From: Actinomycetota bacterium
GTDB lineage: Bacteria > Actinomycetota > Actinomycetes > Nanopelagicales > Nanopelagicaceae
NCBI GenBank assembly: GCA_947451045.1
Contig: CANFXM010000005.1
Coordinates: 1-41,591 of the forward strand
Reading direction: 5' to 3'
Length of the DNA stretch: 41,591 bases
Below, piece after piece: positions 16,105 to 41,591 of the stretch (positions are counted from its first letter, which is position 1; each line of letters begins with the position of its first letter). The notes under the pieces are model-generated. The model worked only from the letters and a program-made list of their open reading frames with translations. It searched no databases and had not been told where the DNA came from. The translations under genes were made by a program, and so were the position numbers.

Positions 16105-17448
16105 CTAAATATGCGATGGAGCAATCTCGGGAAACCAGGAAAGGGCTTCATCGCGGAAATTACCTTCTGCTTCTAATTGGCAGAAAATTCCAGTTGTTCC
16201 AAGGGTTACTCGGTGTATCAGTACATATTCGGCTGGGAGATTGAGTTGGAAACCAATCTTGGCCGTTGGGTTGCGAGGATCTCCCACGCGCGCACTCTGA
16301 TCGCGCAACCATTCGCGAGAATATTTGAACTTCTCTGTCCGAAGTGGCTCAACTAGCGGTACTAAATATTCCAACACTAAAGCTGGATCAACATTGACAT
16401 CACCAACAATAAAACCATCAGCTTTGAAACCTTCATACAAAGCCAGAGCGTCATCATCGAGAGCATGTTTGAGAAGATTCTTCATCGGTTCGGGGAAGCC
16501 GCCAGGTAATCGATTACAGGCACCAAAATCTAGAACGCCTAAGCGTCCATCATCGAGTAAACGAAAGTTTCCTGGATGCGGATCCGCATGCAATAAACCG
16601 GCACGATCTGGTGACGTGAAATGAAAACGTGCCAATTTCATCCCCGCATTATTTCTTTGTTCGGTAGTTCCACTAGCAATAATGTGAGCGAGCGGAGTTC
16701 CATCGAGCCATTCAGAGACTAAGACTCGATCTGAGACCATTACAACTTTAGGAATTGCAATATCTGGATCACCATCGTAGACACGTGCATACGTTTCTTG
16801 CGCTTGTGCTTCGTAACGATAATCAACTTCTTCAATGATGCGAGCACGCAACTCTTCAAGAAGTGGTTTCATTTCAAGACCAGGCATAACTAATTGAAAG
16901 ATTTTTGCAAATCGTTGAATTTGATTGAGATCAGACATAAGGGCTTCTGCTGCACCTGGATATTGAATCTTTACGGCAACGTGACGTCCATCTTTCCATT
17001 GTGCGCGGTGTACTTGACCAATAGATGCTGAAGCAGTTGGCGAATCTTCAAAACTTGCAAAATTATCACGCCAGTCTTCACCTATTTCTTTTGCTAAAAC
17101 TTTATGTACAACCCGTGTTGGGAGCGGAGGAGCTGACTCTTGTAATTTGGTTAACGTTGCTCGGTATGGCTTTGCAATCTCTTCTGGAAGTGCAGCTTCA
17201 AAGACTGAAAGTGCCTGGCCAAACTTCATTGCTCCACCCTTGAGCTCACCAAGAACTTTGAAAAGTTGCTCGGCAGTTTTCTCTTGAATTTCTGCAAAAA
17301 CCACATTGCTCGATTGCCCCACTAATTGGCGACCAAGTCCGAGTGCACCGCGTCCAGCAAGTCCCATCGGAATTGAAACCATTCGGGCAGATCGCACAAA
17401 TGTAGATTGTGGGATCTCGCTTCCTTGGTTGTTGGCCTCAATTGACAT
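16105..17448 (-). CDS. ABC1/AarF/UbiB family kinase-like protein
   Basis: KxGQ-like LGELKGGAMKFGQALS, ASIGQVHRAQWKDGRHVAVKIQYPG, LLHADPHPGNFRLLDDGRLGVLDFGACNRLP. Start shortened to MSIEANNQ. Confidence 0.92.
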   Translation of the reverse strand: MSIEANNQGSEIPQSTFVRSARMVSIPMGLAGRGALGLGRQLVGQSSNVVFAEIQEKTAEQLFKVLGELKGGAMKFGQALSVFEAALPEEIAKPYRATLTKLQESAPPLPTRVVHKVLAKEIGEDWRDNFASFEDSPTASASIGQVHRAQWKDGRHVAVKIQYPGAAEALMSDLNQIQRFAKIFQLVMPGLEMKPLLEELRARIIEEVDYRYEAQAQETYARVYDGDPDIAIPKVVMVSDRVLVSEWLDGTPLAHIIASGTTEQRNNAGMKLARFHFTSPDRAGLLHADPHPGNFRLLDDGRLGVLDFGACNRLPGGFPEPMKNLLKHALDDDALALYEGFKADGFIVGDVNVDPALVLEYLVPLVEPLRTEKFKYSREWLRDQSARVGDPRNPTAKIGFQLNLPAEYVLIHRVTLGTTGIFCQLEAEGNFRDEALSWFPEIAPSHI

Positions 17449-17492: not shown

Positions 17493-18689
17493 CTATTTCC
17501 AGGAGCACCCACAACGTGGGTGAAGGGAATAAGTAATGTGTTCTTGATTACAGGATTCACCATATGCGAATTTCGTACGAGATCCAATCAGTGAATCATC
17601 TCGGCCATCAATGTAACCCAGTAATGCATGCGCGATACGTCCTGAAATTTCATGGGCCGATGCGACCGAACTTTCATGTGCTGGCGCTTTGAGGCCAACA
17701 GCTGAGCTTACTGATGCAATTTCGTGATGCGTAGAAACATCATCTAAATATTCACTTACATCTCCTTGTTCTTCACGTGAAATCGAAATGCACCGCAGGC
17801 ATGGAGTTTTTCCAGGAATTACTAATGGGCCCCAACTAATTCCACCTCCTTGAGGAGTTGAAATGAGAAAGAAATCAATTTCATCACGCATCCACTTTGA
17901 AATAGTTCCAGTTGTCAATTCATCTTTACTGGGATCTCCAACAAATATTTTTAGAGTTCTCTCTTTTGCATATCTTTTCTTTTCATCTGAACTTAGAGGG
18001 AAGAGTGCAAATTCCTTGGCAAGTTCATGCAACCGAACTCGGAAATTAGCTCCCACATCGCTCACTCGTAGAAAAGTGGCTCCGATATCTCTATGACTTA
18101 TTGCGAGATTGTCTCTAATGCCTTGTTGACCAAGATGGGTATTTGTAACACCACTACCCAACAAAATCCCATAAAGGAGTACCGCAATTCGACTACTTCC
18201 ATATATTTCGACTTCAAATTCCTGTCGTGCAGAAATCATTTCTACTCCACCATCTTCAACCCCATCACACCATGTGATTTCAGATAATTCTGGAGTTAGG
18301 CGGTTATGTAATAACTGAAGCGCTGGATCTCTACTTTCAACATTTTTGCGTTTTGCTTTTTCAGCAATGGATGGAACGCTTGAGTGAAAGCGATTGGTCA
18401 ATATAATTTTTCCACTTCTTGTATCCAAAAAATTATTGGAATGAAGAATGGAAATAACCGAATCAACTTCTGAGCGAGAAATTCCAGAAAGTGCAGTTAT
18501 CTCTTCTACGCTCTTACTTCCATCGAGGTAAGAAATAACCTTGCGAGCGCCCGTTCTCTGTAACTCGATATTCTTATCAAAATTACCGATGATGACTCTT
18601 TCATATCCATTGCTTTCTTGGATGGAGACCCGAAGCCCCACTTTCAGGCGTAGGTGATTATCACTGTGCTTTTCTTGTGTATATGTCAT
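17493..18689 (-). CDS. RRE/ThiF-like protein (TOMM cyclodehydratase-like, leader-peptide-binding E1 superfamily member)
   Basis: N-terminal winged-helix/PqqD-like region (ARKVISYLDGSKSVEEITALSGISRSEVDSVISILHSNNFLD), Rossmann-like EVEIYGSSRIAVLLYGILLGSGV, zinc ligands PCLRCISISREEQ and HPRCGCSW. Confidence 0.7.
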   Translation of the reverse strand: MTYTQEKHSDNHLRLKVGLRVSIQESNGYERVIIGNFDKNIELQRTGARKVISYLDGSKSVEEITALSGISRSEVDSVISILHSNNFLDTRSGKIILTNRFHSSVPSIAEKAKRKNVESRDPALQLLHNRLTPELSEITWCDGVEDGGVEMISARQEFEVEIYGSSRIAVLLYGILLGSGVTNTHLGQQGIRDNLAISHRDIGATFLRVSDVGANFRVRLHELAKEFALFPLSSDEKKRYAKERTLKIFVGDPSKDELTTGTISKWMRDEIDFFLISTPQGGGISWGPLVIPGKTPCLRCISISREEQGDVSEYLDDVSTHHEIASVSSAVGLKAPAHESSVASAHEISGRIAHALLGYIDGRDDSLIGSRTKFAYGESCNQEHITYSLHPRCGCSWK

Positions 18690-18814: not shown

Positions 18815-18856
18815 CAAAAAAAGAACAAGCCCCCAATCGCATGAGCGATCGAGGGC
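18815..18856 (-). terminator. Rho-independent terminator downstream of the DUF5679 gene
   Basis: Minus strand GCCCTCGATCGC-TCAT-GCGATTGGGGGC followed by TTGTTCTTTTTTT. Confidence 0.75.
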
Positions 18857-18896
18857 CTGCCTACGTCTTGACGTTAGATATTTATATATCTAAAAA

Positions 18897-19058
18897 TTAC
18901 TGTGCTTTGCCAAGGATGCGATTTACCTTGGTGCCACATACAGGACAGATTCCCTGTGCCATGCGACGACCAGATTCAGAGACCTTTACAGTTCCCTCGA
19001 AATCACGCTTCTCTTTGCACTTAACGCAGTAAGCGTCACCTTTGTATGTCTCAGCCAT
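18897..19058 (-). CDS. DUF5679-like small zinc-ribbon protein (53 aa)
   Basis: MAETYKGDAYCVKCKEKRDFEGTVKVSESGRRMAQGICPVCGTKVNRILGKAQ, two CxxC pairs, RBS GGAGGAAG. Confidence 0.85.
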   Translation of the reverse strand: MAETYKGDAYCVKCKEKRDFEGTVKVSESGRRMAQGICPVCGTKVNRILGKAQ

Positions 19059-19189: not shown

Positions 19190-19780
19190 CTAGGCCTCAG
19201 GGTTGAGGACTTTCTTAAGAATTTCTGGAGCGGCAAGGAGCGTTTCTGCCGCCTCGAAGCCATCTAAATAGGCAGCTGCCCGTTGTGCCTCGGGGAAGCG
19301 GGCCAAAATCGCGTAGAACTCCTCGCCATGGTCGAAATGACGCAGGTGAATGGCCTCATGGAAGAGAACTGAATCCAGAACGTAGTCAGGGGCGCCTTTG
19401 AGGCGGTCTGAGATACGTATTGTGCGGTCGATACCGGTGCAAGAACCCCAGCGCTCGCGCATGGAGCGCCAGTTCACCGATGCTGGACGCTCGGTGATTT
19501 CGGGGGCGAGATTGTTTAACAGCTCATCGATTCTTGTAATCATCAGTTCTTCACTTGGGACTTTTGATGCCTCCATGGCTCGGATTTTGGCAATCATTTG
19601 AGGCACCATCTCGCGCTCATCAGCCTTGGACATGCGGGCAGGGATGGAGATGACTATTCGCCCGCCTTGGCGATAAGCGGAAATATTTTTCTTTCGCCGA
19701 GTTGAGCGGATAACAATGATCTCACCCTCTGTAATGCCAGGGAGGACATCACCTTGAGGATCTTGTGGCAGAAAGTCCAT
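19190..19780 (-). CDS. YgjP-like/M48-type zinc metallopeptidase
   Basis: VLFHEAIHLRHFDHGEEFYAIL (HExxH), WGSCTG motif typical of YgjP/DUF45 proteins. Confidence 0.88.
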   Translation of the reverse strand: MDFLPQDPQGDVLPGITEGEIIVIRSTRRKKNISAYRQGGRIVISIPARMSKADEREMVPQMIAKIRAMEASKVPSEELMITRIDELLNNLAPEITERPASVNWRSMRERWGSCTGIDRTIRISDRLKGAPDYVLDSVLFHEAIHLRHFDHGEEFYAILARFPEAQRAAAYLDGFEAAETLLAAPEILKKVLNPEA

Positions 19781-19998: not shown

Positions 19999-21366
19999 TT
20001 AAAGATTGCTAAGGTCATCCGGAATTGTTGTGCTGGCAATAAATAATTCTGGAGTTGCAAGATCCTCTGCCGTTGGCAGAAAACCTCCCCATATGCGATC
20101 ACGAGTTTGGATATCGCTGAGTTCTAGAATCTTGGCCCAAAATGTTTTTGCTTCTCGAGCAAGCCGCGGTGAAACTTCTAATCCAAAAAGCGATGAAAAT
20201 AATTGTTGAGCTGGCGCCGATGTTGCACGTCGACGTCGAAGCGTCTCACTCAGAGCCCCACTATGTGGGAGTCGCTCCCCCGCGGCAATTTGCGATACTT
20301 CATCTGCCCATCCATCAATGAGGGCTAATACTGTCTCTAATTTTGTCAGTGCACTTTTTTGTGCAGGTGTTTCTTCTGGGGTGAAGATTCCATTGTTGAG
20401 TGCAATCTTAAAGCTTTCTGGGTTTGATGGATCGAATTCACCACTTGCTTGGGCTGATTCAAATGCATCCTGTGCCTGGCGTTGAATTGCATCGATATCG
20501 ATACGAATTCCTTTTCCATATTCAGTGATGGCGCTTTGAATATATGAGACCAACCATGGATTGTGTGAGAAAAGTCGAGCAATGGCTGCTTCGCGAAGTG
20601 CGTGAAAAATACGAACTTCATCCATTGGAATTTCTAAATCTTTAGCCCATTCATTAATATTTTGTGGAACTAAAGCAGGATATGCAGGGTCTAGTAGTGG
20701 AAGCCCTACATCGTGCGCCCCCGTCATTCCAGCTGAGAGTGAACCAATCGATTGTCCTAGCTGAGTTGCAATGAGGGAACCAATAAATGAACGAAGTAAG
20801 CCCGCAAGTGCGCCAACTGGAATATTTAGCGGACTCTCTTCACTTTCCCCCGCTTGTGCTTCCATTGCGCTATCTAGAAGTGTCCCAATAGCGGCGGCAA
20901 GTCCTGCGGCAAGTGGCTCCACCAAAACCTGCCACCCCGTCAATGTCGTATTGACCCAATCCATTCGGCTAAGTGAATTCCCTGATGCCGGTGGAATGGA
21001 ATGTGATGATGGAAAGTAGGTAGCTTGATCTAGCCACAGTTCTGCAAGTGCGAGCGCTTCTTCTATTTGCGCAACATCATTTGCTCCAATTGGAGCAGAT
21101 CCATGTGCTTGCACAAATTTCTTGGCAGTATCTCTCACAATATTTCGCGGGAGCGCTTCGGCAGATTTTCCTGATGAATCTAAACCTTGAGTGAATTGAT
21201 TAATAAAACCAACGGGATTGAAATCTGCACTTACTCCCAAATTTTTGAATTGTTCACGGATTTTTTCTTGCATCTCTTCCATCATTGCTGCAAATTCTTG
21301 AGAGTTCTCAGGTTCATTTGCCTTATTATCTTCTGAGTCGTCAGGTGTGAATCCAATTGGTGACAT
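19999..21366 (-). CDS. DUF2342/zincin_2-like protein (annotated in relatives as zinc-dependent metalloprotease)
   Basis: MSPIGFTPDDSED..., GWVLVEPLAAG-like segment, HALREAAIARLFSHNPWLVSYIQSAITEYGKGIRID, LALIDGWADEVSQIA; start chosen at 21366. Confidence 0.7.
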   Translation of the reverse strand: MSPIGFTPDDSEDNKANEPENSQEFAAMMEEMQEKIREQFKNLGVSADFNPVGFINQFTQGLDSSGKSAEALPRNIVRDTAKKFVQAHGSAPIGANDVAQIEEALALAELWLDQATYFPSSHSIPPASGNSLSRMDWVNTTLTGWQVLVEPLAAGLAAAIGTLLDSAMEAQAGESEESPLNIPVGALAGLLRSFIGSLIATQLGQSIGSLSAGMTGAHDVGLPLLDPAYPALVPQNINEWAKDLEIPMDEVRIFHALREAAIARLFSHNPWLVSYIQSAITEYGKGIRIDIDAIQRQAQDAFESAQASGEFDPSNPESFKIALNNGIFTPEETPAQKSALTKLETVLALIDGWADEVSQIAAGERLPHSGALSETLRRRRATSAPAQQLFSSLFGLEVSPRLAREAKTFWAKILELSDIQTRDRIWGGFLPTAEDLATPELFIASTTIPDDLSNL

Positions 21367-21459
21367 GGCTACCATCCTCTCATCTTCGCCCAAGTGTTGC
21401 TTATCTAGTCCAACAAACTCAATGCGAGTTTTCTTCCCAGTGCTAGTACGATGTGCCTC

Positions 21460-21717: not shown

Positions 21718-22527
21718 ATGCGCTTCTCCCCGCTGCCATTATTAGCAAAAATTACTTTATTAGTTTTTGGAATCTGCACAATCCTTGTTCCGCTTCCCTA
21801 CGTTGTAATGATTCCAGGCGATGCTGTAAATGTATTCAATTCAACTATCACAATAAAAAATCACACGGTTTATCCCGCTGAAGGACGCTTAGATTTACTT
21901 TCAATTCGTATATCAAATCCTGATTCTCTAGTTTTTGGCCCAGAGGTTTTCTACACCTGGTTCAAAGGTGATCGAGTTGTCTATCCTCGATCCGCCGTGT
22001 ATCGAAATGGGACCACGACTAAGAGTGAAGAGGCGAGCGCCAAGAAAGATATGCAAGGTTCGCAAAATACTTCTATTTCGGCAGCGCTCACCTATCTCAA
22101 CAAAAATTCACTTGCAATATCTGGAACGCCTTTCAAGCCATCAGATATAAAATTTGATATCAAAGCAACGGGTGGTCCCAGTGGTGGACTTGTTTTTGCT
22201 TTAGGAATAATTGAATTACTTACGCAAGAAAGTATTTTGGGTAAAAACCATATTGCCGGCACTGGAACAATATCGGCCACAGGGGCGGTTGGCCCGATTG
22301 GTGGGATAACTGAAAAAATTATCGCTGCCAAAAGAGCTGGAGCGACTATTTTTCTGGCACCAATTGAAAACTGTTTAGAACTCACCAAAGTCCCGAAGGG
22401 TATGAGCGTCATTGCCGTCACAAATTTGAGCGATGCAATCCAACAATTACAGCCCTTTGCACGCGGCATGAGGGCCAATTTTTCGTCTATGAAGACGAGC
22501 AATGGGTGCGCTAACGTAGGCGCATGA
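21718..22527 (+). CDS. Membrane-anchored Lon-like (S16)/YlbL-type protease
   Basis: GGPSGGLVFALGIIELLTQ (catalytic Ser), GTISATGAVGPIGGITEKIIAAKRAGATIFLAP (catalytic Lys); N-terminal TM. Confidence 0.88.
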   Translation: MRFSPLPLLAKITLLVFGICTILVPLPYVVMIPGDAVNVFNSTITIKNHTVYPAEGRLDLLSIRISNPDSLVFGPEVFYTWFKGDRVVYPRSAVYRNGTTTKSEEASAKKDMQGSQNTSISAALTYLNKNSLAISGTPFKPSDIKFDIKATGGPSGGLVFALGIIELLTQESILGKNHIAGTGTISATGAVGPIGGITEKIIAAKRAGATIFLAPIENCLELTKVPKGMSVIAVTNLSDAIQQLQPFARGMRANFSSMKTSNGCANVGA

Positions 22528-25370
22528 TGAGTAGAGCAAACCCACAAGTAAATTTCCCTCGCAAGCGCGGTCCACTTTCAATCACAATTGGAATTTTGGC
22601 TGTCTTAGTAATCGCGCTTATCTCACTCAGCGGTTTTTACGCAGATTGGCTCTGGTTCAAGTCAGTCAACTTCACAAGCGTGTGGAGCACTGTCCTATTT
22701 ACAAAAATTGAACTCTTTTTCCTGATCGGTATTGCGACCTCCTTTATAATTTCGCTCAACATTTACTTAGCTTTTCGCCGCCGACCTTTTTATGTTCCAT
22801 TAGCTGTAGAAGCCGATAATCTCGAAAGATACCGCGCGCAAATAGAACCCATCAGACGCTGGGTCTTTGCAGCACTTGCAGTCGCACTCATTTATTTTGC
22901 TGGTACTTCTGGTTCTCAACTCTGGAATACCTGGTTGCTCTTTAAGAATTCAACAAGCTTCGGAGTCAAGGATCCACAATTTGGAATGGATATTTCTTTC
23001 TTTGCATTCAGATTACCGATGTGGCAAAGCATCATTGGTTGGGCAATTTCCACACTTGTACTTTCACTTATTGCAACTGCCATAGTCCACTACCTCTATG
23101 GCGGTATCAGACTTCAAGTTCGCGAAGATCGCACAACTGTTGCTGCTCGTGTTCAACTTTCTGTACTTCTTGGACTTCTTGTTTTGATGAAGGCAGTTGC
23201 ATATTGGTTTGATCGTTACGCACTCGTACTCAAGCAGAGTAAATTGATTACAGGTCTTACCTACACCGATGTCAATGCTGTTCTTCCTGCAAAGGCAATT
23301 CTTGCCGCCATTGCAGTGGTGTGTGCTCTTCTATTTTTTGCAAATATTGTGCGACGCTCATGGGTACTTCCAGCTGCGGGAACTGCACTTCTCGTCATCT
23401 CATCAGTTTTGATTGCAGGCATTTATCCTGGTGCGATTCAACAGTTTCAAGTAAAGCCAAGCGAATCCTCTAAAGAAGCTCCCTATATTCAACGAAATAT
23501 CGATGCAACTCGCGCAGCATACGGTTTAGATAATGTAAACGTAACTGACTACCAAGCAACAATTTCTACCTCTGCCGGGCAGCTGACAAAGGATGCTGCG
23601 ACTATTTCAAATATTCGCTTAATGGATCCAAATGTTCTTTCTGCAACATTTCGTCAATTACAACAGATAAAGCCTTATTACACATTCCCGGAATCACTCG
23701 ATGTTGACCGATATAAAGTAAATGGAGTTCAACGCGATGTGATTGTGGCAGTACGTGAACTCAACATTGAAGGTAATCCAAGTCGCAACTGGATCAACGA
23801 TCACCTTGTTTACACACATGGTTTTGGTTTAGTTGCCGCATACGGCAATGCCCGCGATGCGGACGGAAAACCATCTTTCGCTGTCGGAGACCTTCCACCT
23901 ACAAAGGGCTTAGGAACTTTCCAGCCTCGTATTTATTTTGGCGAAAATGTTCCTGACTATTCAATTATTGGCGGTGTAAAAACTAATTCTCCCGTTGAGT
24001 TTGATTATCCAGATGATGCATCATCTAATGGTCAGAAAAACTTTACCTATACAGGAACTGGTGGAGTACCAGTAGGTTCGCTTTTCAATAAATTCGTCTT
24101 CGCTCTAAAGTACCAAGAGCAAAAACTTCTGCTTTCAAACCTCATCAATAAAGATTCTAAAATCCTGTTCAACCGTAATCCACGTGATCGAGTTGCAAAA
24201 GTTGCTCCATGGCTCACTCTTGATGGAAATCCATACCCAGCAATTGTGGATGGAAAAGTTACATGGATTATTGACGGCTACACGACAAGTTCCGGGTATC
24301 CATATTCAAAAGAGACAGTACTTTCAAGTGCAACAAGTGATGCATTGACAGCTAATTCCACATCTATAACCGCGCAAAGTAATAAGACTGTTAATTACAT
24401 CCGTAACTCAGTCAAGGCGACAGTAGATGCCTACGATGGAACAGTTACTTTGTATCAGTGGGATGCAAAAGATCCTGTACTTGCAACGTGGAGTAAGGCT
24501 TTTCCAGGCAGCGTAAAACCTAAGAGCGCTATATCTGCAGAACTAATGCAACATATTCGATATCCAGAAGATATCTTCCGCGTACAGCGTGAAATTCTCA
24601 GTGCCTACCATGTAAAGACTGCAGGAGCTTTTTATGGTGGTCAAGATTTCTGGCGCGTGCCTCGTGATCCATCCACATTTGGTGGAAATGCAGGAGCGCA
24701 ACCTCCTTACTATCTCACTCTCCAATTACCTGGCGCTGCTAAACCTGCATTCTCATTGACAACACCATTTGTCCCTCGAGGTGGTCGAGAAAACTTATCT
24801 GCATTTGCAGTAGTGAATTCAGATTCTGGTCCTGATTACGGAAAAATTTCTGTATTGCAATTACCACGAAGTACTAACGTGGCCGGTCCTTCTCAAGTGG
24901 CTTCAAACTTTGAAGCAAAACCAGAAGTTGCTAACTCACTCTCACTGCTGCGCCAGGGTGGTTCTGACGTAGTACTTGGTAATCTCTTGACACTTCCAGT
25001 TGGTGGCGGATTACTTTATGTACAACCTGTCTATGTGCGTGCAACAGCAAATAGTGCTGCATATCCATTACTTCAAAAAGTATTAGTTTCATTCGGAGAT
25101 CAAATTGGTTATGACGACACACTTAAGGGTGCACTCGATCAAGTCTTTGGTGGAAATTCAGGAACAACTGCATCTACCGGAATTGGAAATACAACTACAA
25201 CAACTGGAACAACAAATAATGCATTAGCGAGTGCATTAGCGAGTGCCAAGCAAGCACTTACTGATGGACAAGCTGCACTTGCAAAAGGTGATTTCACTGC
25301 ATACGGACGTGCACAAGATCGCTTGAAGTCTGCAATTGCTTCAGCAATCGCTGCGCAATCTCGTAAGTAA
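22524..25370 (+). CDS. UPF0182 family large membrane protein
   Basis: Seven N-terminal TM segments, FYADWLWFKSVNF, long conserved extracellular domain; ATGA overlap with the upstream gene. Confidence 0.92.
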   Translation: MMSRANPQVNFPRKRGPLSITIGILAVLVIALISLSGFYADWLWFKSVNFTSVWSTVLFTKIELFFLIGIATSFIISLNIYLAFRRRPFYVPLAVEADNLERYRAQIEPIRRWVFAALAVALIYFAGTSGSQLWNTWLLFKNSTSFGVKDPQFGMDISFFAFRLPMWQSIIGWAISTLVLSLIATAIVHYLYGGIRLQVREDRTTVAARVQLSVLLGLLVLMKAVAYWFDRYALVLKQSKLITGLTYTDVNAVLPAKAILAAIAVVCALLFFANIVRRSWVLPAAGTALLVISSVLIAGIYPGAIQQFQVKPSESSKEAPYIQRNIDATRAAYGLDNVNVTDYQATISTSAGQLTKDAATISNIRLMDPNVLSATFRQLQQIKPYYTFPESLDVDRYKVNGVQRDVIVAVRELNIEGNPSRNWINDHLVYTHGFGLVAAYGNARDADGKPSFAVGDLPPTKGLGTFQPRIYFGENVPDYSIIGGVKTNSPVEFDYPDDASSNGQKNFTYTGTGGVPVGSLFNKFVFALKYQEQKLLLSNLINKDSKILFNRNPRDRVAKVAPWLTLDGNPYPAIVDGKVTWIIDGYTTSSGYPYSKETVLSSATSDALTANSTSITAQSNKTVNYIRNSVKATVDAYDGTVTLYQWDAKDPVLATWSKAFPGSVKPKSAISAELMQHIRYPEDIFRVQREILSAYHVKTAGAFYGGQDFWRVPRDPSTFGGNAGAQPPYYLTLQLPGAAKPAFSLTTPFVPRGGRENLSAFAVVNSDSGPDYGKISVLQLPRSTNVAGPSQVASNFEAKPEVANSLSLLRQGGSDVVLGNLLTLPVGGGLLYVQPVYVRATANSAAYPLLQKVLVSFGDQIGYDDTLKGALDQVFGGNSGTTASTGIGNTTTTTGTTNNALASALASAKQALTDGQAALAKGDFTAYGRAQDRLKSAIASAIAAQSRK

Positions 25371-41278: not shown

Positions 41279-41591
41279 GCAGCACTCTCTTCGCGTTCGC
41301 TCTCTAATTCAATAGAGGAAACACTTTCGAGTACTACAGCAGTTGCAACTTGATCCATGCGAGGACGGCCAGCTTTGCGCTTGCGGGCAATGACTTTGCC
41401 ATCTTCGAATAGTTCCCCGCCCCATACGCCAACTGGTTCTTGACGTGAGAGAGCGCCTTCAAGACATTGCTTGCGTACTGGGCATCCACCGCAGAGAGAC
41501 TTTGCTTCTGCAACTTTAATTTCATCTTCGGAGAAGAAGAGTTCAGGATCTGCACTGTGGCATGGCAAGGTAAAGGCAATGGCGCTGTCAT
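41275..41591 (-). CDS. WhiB family iron-sulfur transcriptional regulator (N-terminus beyond the window edge)
   Basis: PCHSADPELFFSEDEIKVAEAKSLCGGCPVRKQCLEGALSRQEPVGVWGGELF; frame stays open to the window edge (DSAIAFTLPCHSA). Confidence 0.92.
   Translation of the reverse strand, partial: DSAIAFTLPCHSADPELFFSEDEIKVAEAKSLCGGCPVRKQCLEGALSRQEPVGVWGGELFEDGKVIARKRKAGRPRMDQVATAVVLESVSSIELESEREESAA

Follow-up and report, generated by a model that had tools for sequence, protein, structure and literature searches.

In the stretch of DNA analysed here, a contig region of 41,591 nucleotides from a member of the Nanopelagicaceae (Actinomycetota) that we call the window, we characterized a protein which couples a predicted RRE, a domain of the peptide-binding type, to a putatively zinc-binding E1/ThiF-like domain that appears to have lost adenylation. 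With moderate confidence, we propose that this RRE-pseudo-E1 protein is a non-adenylating scaffold, ancestral in Actinomycetes, which presents a peptide or protein unrelated to RiPPs. A cellular peptide, or the tail of a protein, would be held jointly by the RRE and the E1-like groove for the action of another enzyme, in analogy with the 'C' domain of azoline cyclodehydratases but without RiPP or YcaO.

The open reading frame is where the original prediction had placed it, on the minus strand, and encodes 398 residues. In close relatives, the pairwise dN/dS of the gene is 0.03-0.17, so that the gene is functional, and purifying selection together with class-wide conservation excludes a chance open reading frame at 17493-18689. 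The features of the gene are the following:

17493-18689, minus strand: RRE-pseudo-E1 (ThiF-like) gene, 398 residues (open reading frame, AlphaFold2 model, fold matches, class-wide orthologues)
18432-18650, minus strand: RRE-like beta3-winged-helix domain, residues 14-86 (DSSP on the AlphaFold2 model)
18183-18203, minus strand: degenerate nucleotide loop YGSSRIA, residues 163-169 (alignment statistics; GAGRVGA in most class orthologues)
17790-17801, minus strand: CxxC, residues 297-300 (GPLVIPGKTPCLRC motif); each of the 115 aligned sequences has Cys at both columns
17505-17522, minus strand: HPxCxC, residues 390-395, other half of the presumed zinc site (alignment)

Fold and catalytic residues

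Scanned with the HMMs of Pfam and NCBIfam, the window protein stays under every curated cut-off: PF00899 is not reported and the score against TIGR03882 is 22.4 bits, below the cut-off of 36.9. The scan of genomes with the single sequence returned no relatives, and a phmmer search of the PDB with the window protein alone returned no match. Because all curated cut-offs were missed, the RRE/E1 fold of this protein is seen only by profiles and structure. Indeed, a profile of 18 relatives searched against the PDB matched MccB at an E-value of 4e-12, with TruD, LynD and MusD as weaker matches.

We also modelled the protein with AlphaFold2, using small alignments for these structures (37 homologues for the window protein; mean pLDDT 85.4, pTM 0.85). 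In the N-terminal part of the model, DSSP assigned strands to residues 20-26, 29-35 and 40-43 and helices to residues 48-54, 61-68 and 72-84; in this model, the order of the elements is that of the beta3-winged-helix topology of RREs, domains in which the leader peptide lies between helix 3 and strand 3. An E1 Rossmann fold lies C-terminal to the RRE-like domain. The model of a distant orthologue with an intact GAGRVG loop, from a genome labelled Acidothermus, gave an identical order of elements (pLDDT 82.3), so that an N-terminal three-stranded sheet with winged-helix helices is predicted for two orthologues. When the structure was compared with the PDB by Foldseek, MccB was ranked first (E 7e-14), followed by TruD, LynD, PaaA and McbB, which led us again to RRE-E1 proteins, and then by ThiF and MoeB.

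The original prediction had described an RRE-like winged helix joined to an E1-like Rossmann domain with CxxC...CxC zinc ligands, and had suggested structure prediction as a check. Both folds are seen in the AlphaFold2 models and are supported by Foldseek and by the profile search. The cysteines are present at residues 297-300 and 393-395 (the CxC), which adds a putative zinc site to the E1/ThiF-type Rossmann fold, and the four zinc-type Cys are all kept in 111 of the 115 aligned homologues.

The protein resembles MccB, the microcin C7 synthase, in that RRE and E1 domains have the same order and fold, MccB being its best match by both profile and structure, and the zinc region GPLxVPGxxxCxxC is common to MccB and to the family. 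Unlike MccB, the family has no catalytic Arg/Lys pair and its NL.RQ motif is degenerate, reading D..P/G; its gene is moreover chromosomal, class-wide and adjoins no known RiPP genes. The canonical E1 enzymes MoeB and ThiF share the E1 Rossmann core but, unlike the family, have no RRE and retain the catalytic residues. The third likeness is with the TIGR03882 proteins, the C domain of cyclodehydratases (TruD, LynD, McbB), which also associate an RRE with an E1-like domain and zinc cysteines, and whose role is that of a substrate-presenting scaffold. Unlike these systems, the window's genome has no YcaO, and no precursor was recognised among the conserved neighbours of the gene.

The E1-like RiPP enzymes PaaA (R174, K187) and EnfB (R167, K180) depend on an Arg and a Lys spaced by 13 residues (PMC12250964); in the aligned chain of MccB, the counterpart pair is R160/K173 (own numbering of that chain). 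None of the 114 family members has the catalytic Arg. It is found in a single aligned row (1/115), L090, a canonical ThiF (PF00899, 143.8 bits), and this positive control indicates that the alignment is able to show the residue. The position of the catalytic Lys is occupied by Arg in 39 of the 55 class sequences from outside the order/family group and by Phe in 41 of the 60 inside it; the borders of this group, which pools by locus number the window's family and near relatives, are approximate. Because the Arg is missing throughout and the Lys is substituted, the whole family appears, on alignment evidence, to be non-adenylating. In the window protein, the ribose Asp is replaced as well.

The loop YGSSRIA is present as the original prediction had read it, but it does not define the family, since most other class members have GAGRVGA. 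With L090 left out, 34 of the 54 sequences from elsewhere in the class (about 60%) have an intact GxGxxG signature, against 0 of 60 in the order/family group, so that YGSSRIA is a late and lineage-specific erosion. The proposal of a binding and not an adenylating protein is probably right, given the catalytic Arg count and the additional loss of the P-loop in this lineage. GxGRxG and the ribose Asp after beta2 are retained by most class members, which could bind a nucleotide or dinucleotide, and it is possible that some with an intact loop are active enzymes or nucleotide sensors.

Distribution and the conserved gene block

The gene had been regarded as an orphan among housekeeping genes. On the contrary, we found a homologue in 137 of 148 sampled Actinomycetes genomes, and the gene has a fixed place in a syntenic block found across the class, next to ABC1/MABP-1 and WhiB/UvrD. 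The idea that its retention in a streamlined genome indicates a core role agrees with its presence in 72 of the 81 genomes of the family sample, but not with its loss in a sister genus (g19), where the gene and ABC1 are both absent in 7 of 8 genomes sampled; at two g19 loci lacking both, WhiB and UvrD come straight after DUF5679 and no trace of the lost genes is left. Beyond the class, almost every match is partial and limited to the Rossmann region, as expected of canonical E1 enzymes, and one match (G187) reaches further.

We found no YcaO in the window's own genome, which is 96% complete. This extends to the whole genome the absence first noticed in the window, and the non-RiPP role put forward in the original prediction is supported by it. 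In the class sample, YcaO was found in 42 genomes, and 98 of the 137 carriers of the RRE-pseudo-E1 gene are without it.

Across many families (61 loci), the recurrent order is UPF0182, Lon/PDZ protease, Zincin_2, YgjP, DUF5679, RRE-pseudo-E1, ABC1, WhiB and UvrD. DUF5679 is immediately upstream of the RRE-pseudo-E1 gene in 46 of these loci and ABC1 immediately downstream in 35, and in 21 WhiB or UvrD directly follows it. The window holds the block up to ABC1; WhiB and UvrD come next in most relatives, but not here. The members in the window are:

16105-17448, minus strand: ABC1 atypical kinase-like protein, relative of MABP-1 (Rv3197) (PF03109, 204.9 bits; PDB 5yjz/7cy2; synteny)
18824-18861, minus strand: strong intrinsic-terminator-like hairpin of 17 pairs with a T-run, between DUF5679 and the RRE-pseudo-E1 gene
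18897-19058, minus strand: DUF5679 small zinc-ribbon protein, conserved upstream neighbour (PF18930, 57.8 bits)
19190-19780, minus strand: YgjP-like metallopeptidase, block member (HMM scan, synteny)
19999-21393, minus strand: Zincin_2 (TIGR03624 putative hydrolase), block member (HMM scan, synteny)
21718-22527, plus strand: Lon-type S16 protease-like protein, block member (HMM scan, synteny)
22524-25370, plus strand: UPF0182 membrane protein, block member (HMM scan, synteny)

DUF5679, a zinc ribbon behind the terminator, is the only small conserved neighbour of the RRE-pseudo-E1 gene. The likely ATG of ABC1 is at 17448, 44 nt past the stop of the RRE-pseudo-E1 gene. In several families, ABC1 starts a few bases before or after this stop (overlap or close coupling), and the two genes are therefore probably co-translated in those families. 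Against NF050082, the ABC1 of the window scores 466 bits, below the cut-off of 800.

Compared with a genus mate, the RRE-pseudo-E1 protein is 31% identical and is the fastest-evolving of the block, whose other members are 42-93% identical. Since the neighbours show these values in the same genomes, the RRE-pseudo-E1 protein is simply fast. We considered a horizontal acquisition of ABC1, which is 86% identical against the 31%, and rejected it on the same grounds. The fast evolution counts against a scaffold, as it is unusual for a protein with a universal ligand.

In a search for a defence role, an orthologue gave only weak generic E1-E2 matches, and the window protein a weak match to a winged helix. 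Two long frames (L044, L054), searched for a fusion with a neighbour by the family profile only, gave nothing beyond the single family domain.

Alternative functions

We found no support for giving the window protein the NCBI name of TIGR03882, "TOMM precursor leader peptide-binding protein". We defined a TOMM cyclodehydratase C protein as a match to TIGR03882 above 36.9 bits accompanied by YcaO and a nearby precursor. That the gene encodes such a protein, working or as a relic, with YcaO and precursor elsewhere in the genome, is very improbable, and this reading is already largely refuted. Its fold is that of the TruD and LynD C domains, and TIGR03882 touches all 35 orthologues scanned; out of four scanned singly, one was not reported, two scored 32.4 and 36.6 bits and only the mycobacterial one passes (38.9 against 36.9 bits). 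Nevertheless, the YcaO partner is missing from both the cluster and the genome here, as from most carriers, and fixed chromosomal synteny with strong purifying selection is at odds with a relic cluster. Furthermore, two genomes have, besides the main orthologue, a separate match close to YcaO, as expected of distinct TOMM C paralogues. An active E1-like enzyme with substituted catalytic residues, which would modify the C-terminus of a peptide or small protein in the manner of MccB, is rather unlikely. MccB, an adenylating enzyme, is the nearest fold, class members retain GAGRVG and the beta2 Asp, and an Arg stands at the position of the MccB catalytic Lys; but the other catalytic Arg is absent throughout, the NL.RQ motif is altered as described, and the order/family sequences are also without the P-loop glycines and the Asp while selection remains strong.

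A zinc-dependent regulator, for instance of the neighbouring whiB, whose winged helix would contact DNA or RNA is in our view improbable. The N-terminus is weakly similar to the winged helices of MarR, AdcR and ZitR, whiB is a neighbour, and RREs and the winged helices of regulators are alike in structure (PMC7470986), which speaks for such a regulator. However, the net charge of helices 2 and 3 has a mean of -3.7 in the order/family group and of -1.2 in the class, and recognition helices with such neutral to acidic sequences disfavour DNA binding. A three-strand front with a fused E1 domain fits RRE-E1 enzymes and not regulators, and the gene is kept in the window although whiB does not follow ABC1 there. 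Equally doubtful to us is a Rossmann domain acting as a dinucleotide (NAD/FAD) or redox sensor, in which zinc would be structural and peptide binding secondary. The G-A-G-R-V-G loop that most class members have, with an Asp following beta2, and scattered weak matches to NAD-dehydrogenase families point in this direction; yet loop and Asp are gone in the whole order/family sample with the protein still under selection, and the fold search ranks E1 enzymes, not dehydrogenases, first.

The second matches close to YcaO are weak and lie about 1 kb from it (G102:C1:2251327-2251701 and G157:C2:1337666-1338025); they probably encode genuine TOMM C proteins, separate from the RRE-pseudo-E1 gene. The mycobacterial orthologue that passes TIGR03882 is at L053:6781-7650, and the TOMM leader-binding name can thus be given without any nearby YcaO. 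The NCBI family name (RiPP leader-binding) can misdirect genome mining for members of the family.

ABC1 and the mycobacterial whiB7 region

For the scaffold that we favour, we infer peptide binding and ABC1 as one partner. The ABC1/MABP-1 kinase-like ATPase would be the best candidate for the second enzyme where it is present, but it cannot be the sole one, given the many genomes in which the scaffold persists and ABC1 is absent. Of the class genomes sampled, 114 have both genes, 23 the RRE-pseudo-E1 gene only, 2 ABC1 only and 9 neither (Fisher p = 1.5e-5, ignoring relatedness). A strong ABC1 orthologue is present in 32 of the 81 genomes of the family sample, all 32 of which have the RRE-pseudo-E1 gene. 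Conversely, 23 of the 137 carriers of this gene in the class and 40 of the 72 in the family have no ABC1, which rules out a strict dependence on ABC1; in one genus (g18) the counts are 10/10 for the RRE-pseudo-E1 gene and 3/10 for ABC1. As ABC1-only genomes are rare and RRE-pseudo-E1-only genomes common, ABC1 seems to need the RRE-pseudo-E1 gene more than the reverse, and ABC1 is a plausible though dispensable partner. In lineages that keep the RRE-pseudo-E1 gene (L101; G365 contig C3), ABC1 appears in two pieces, which may reflect gene decay or faulty assembly.

A mycobacterial-type locus (L053) has the order Zincin_2, RRE-pseudo-E1, ABC1 (811 bits to PDB 5yjz), WhiB and UvrD. Rv3197 is MABP-1 (PMC6208485), whiB7 is Rv3197A and adjoins uvrD2 (PMC10272870), and in Streptomyces the genes of an ABC1 kinase and an M48 metallopeptidase are syntenic with whiB7 (PMC13118837). 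Gene order suggests that the block corresponds to the mycobacterial Rv3193c-Rv3198c (whiB7) region and that the orthologue is Rv3196. By synteny and profile, the window protein is orthologous to this Rv3196-type protein; the mycobacterial form, unlike it, is shorter (289 residues) with a reduced Rossmann middle. We rejected MSMEG_1953 as the mycobacterial orthologue, since papers show that it is whiB7; the orthologue would then flank MSMEG_1954 on its opposite side. In the open-licence literature we found no papers on MSMEG_1955 and none studying the RRE-pseudo-E1 family.

WhiB7 is a regulator of intrinsic resistance and antibiotic stress. The family is kept, across most Actinomycetes including mycobacteria, beside WhiB7 and the macrolide-binding MABP-1. 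If the protein does bind peptides, RREs would enter core actinobacterial physiology, and a testable route would open to the real substrate of MABP-1/ABC1. A more speculative and in our opinion unlikely possibility is a two-part analogue of a TOMM synthetase, in which the scaffold would capture a peptide or protein tail on which ABC1 (UbiB-family, MABP-1) would act with ATP, in a translation-stress response of the whiB7 locus; lineages lacking ABC1 would re-use the scaffold with another enzyme. Such a system would place an RRE outside natural-product biosynthesis, in the core physiology of Actinomycetes.

Other parts of the block differ in the window. The Lon-type protease (21718-22527) has 269 residues and the Lon_C domain only, compared with about 300-490 residues in g19 and other families; in one locus (L186) a long extra stretch, probably PDZ, lies ahead of Lon_C, and the window's genus seems to have lost it. 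A match to the WhiB family, with 65% identity across 72 residues, is found at 41359-41574, at the window edge and far from ABC1, unlike in relatives, which indicates that the block is rearranged in the window.
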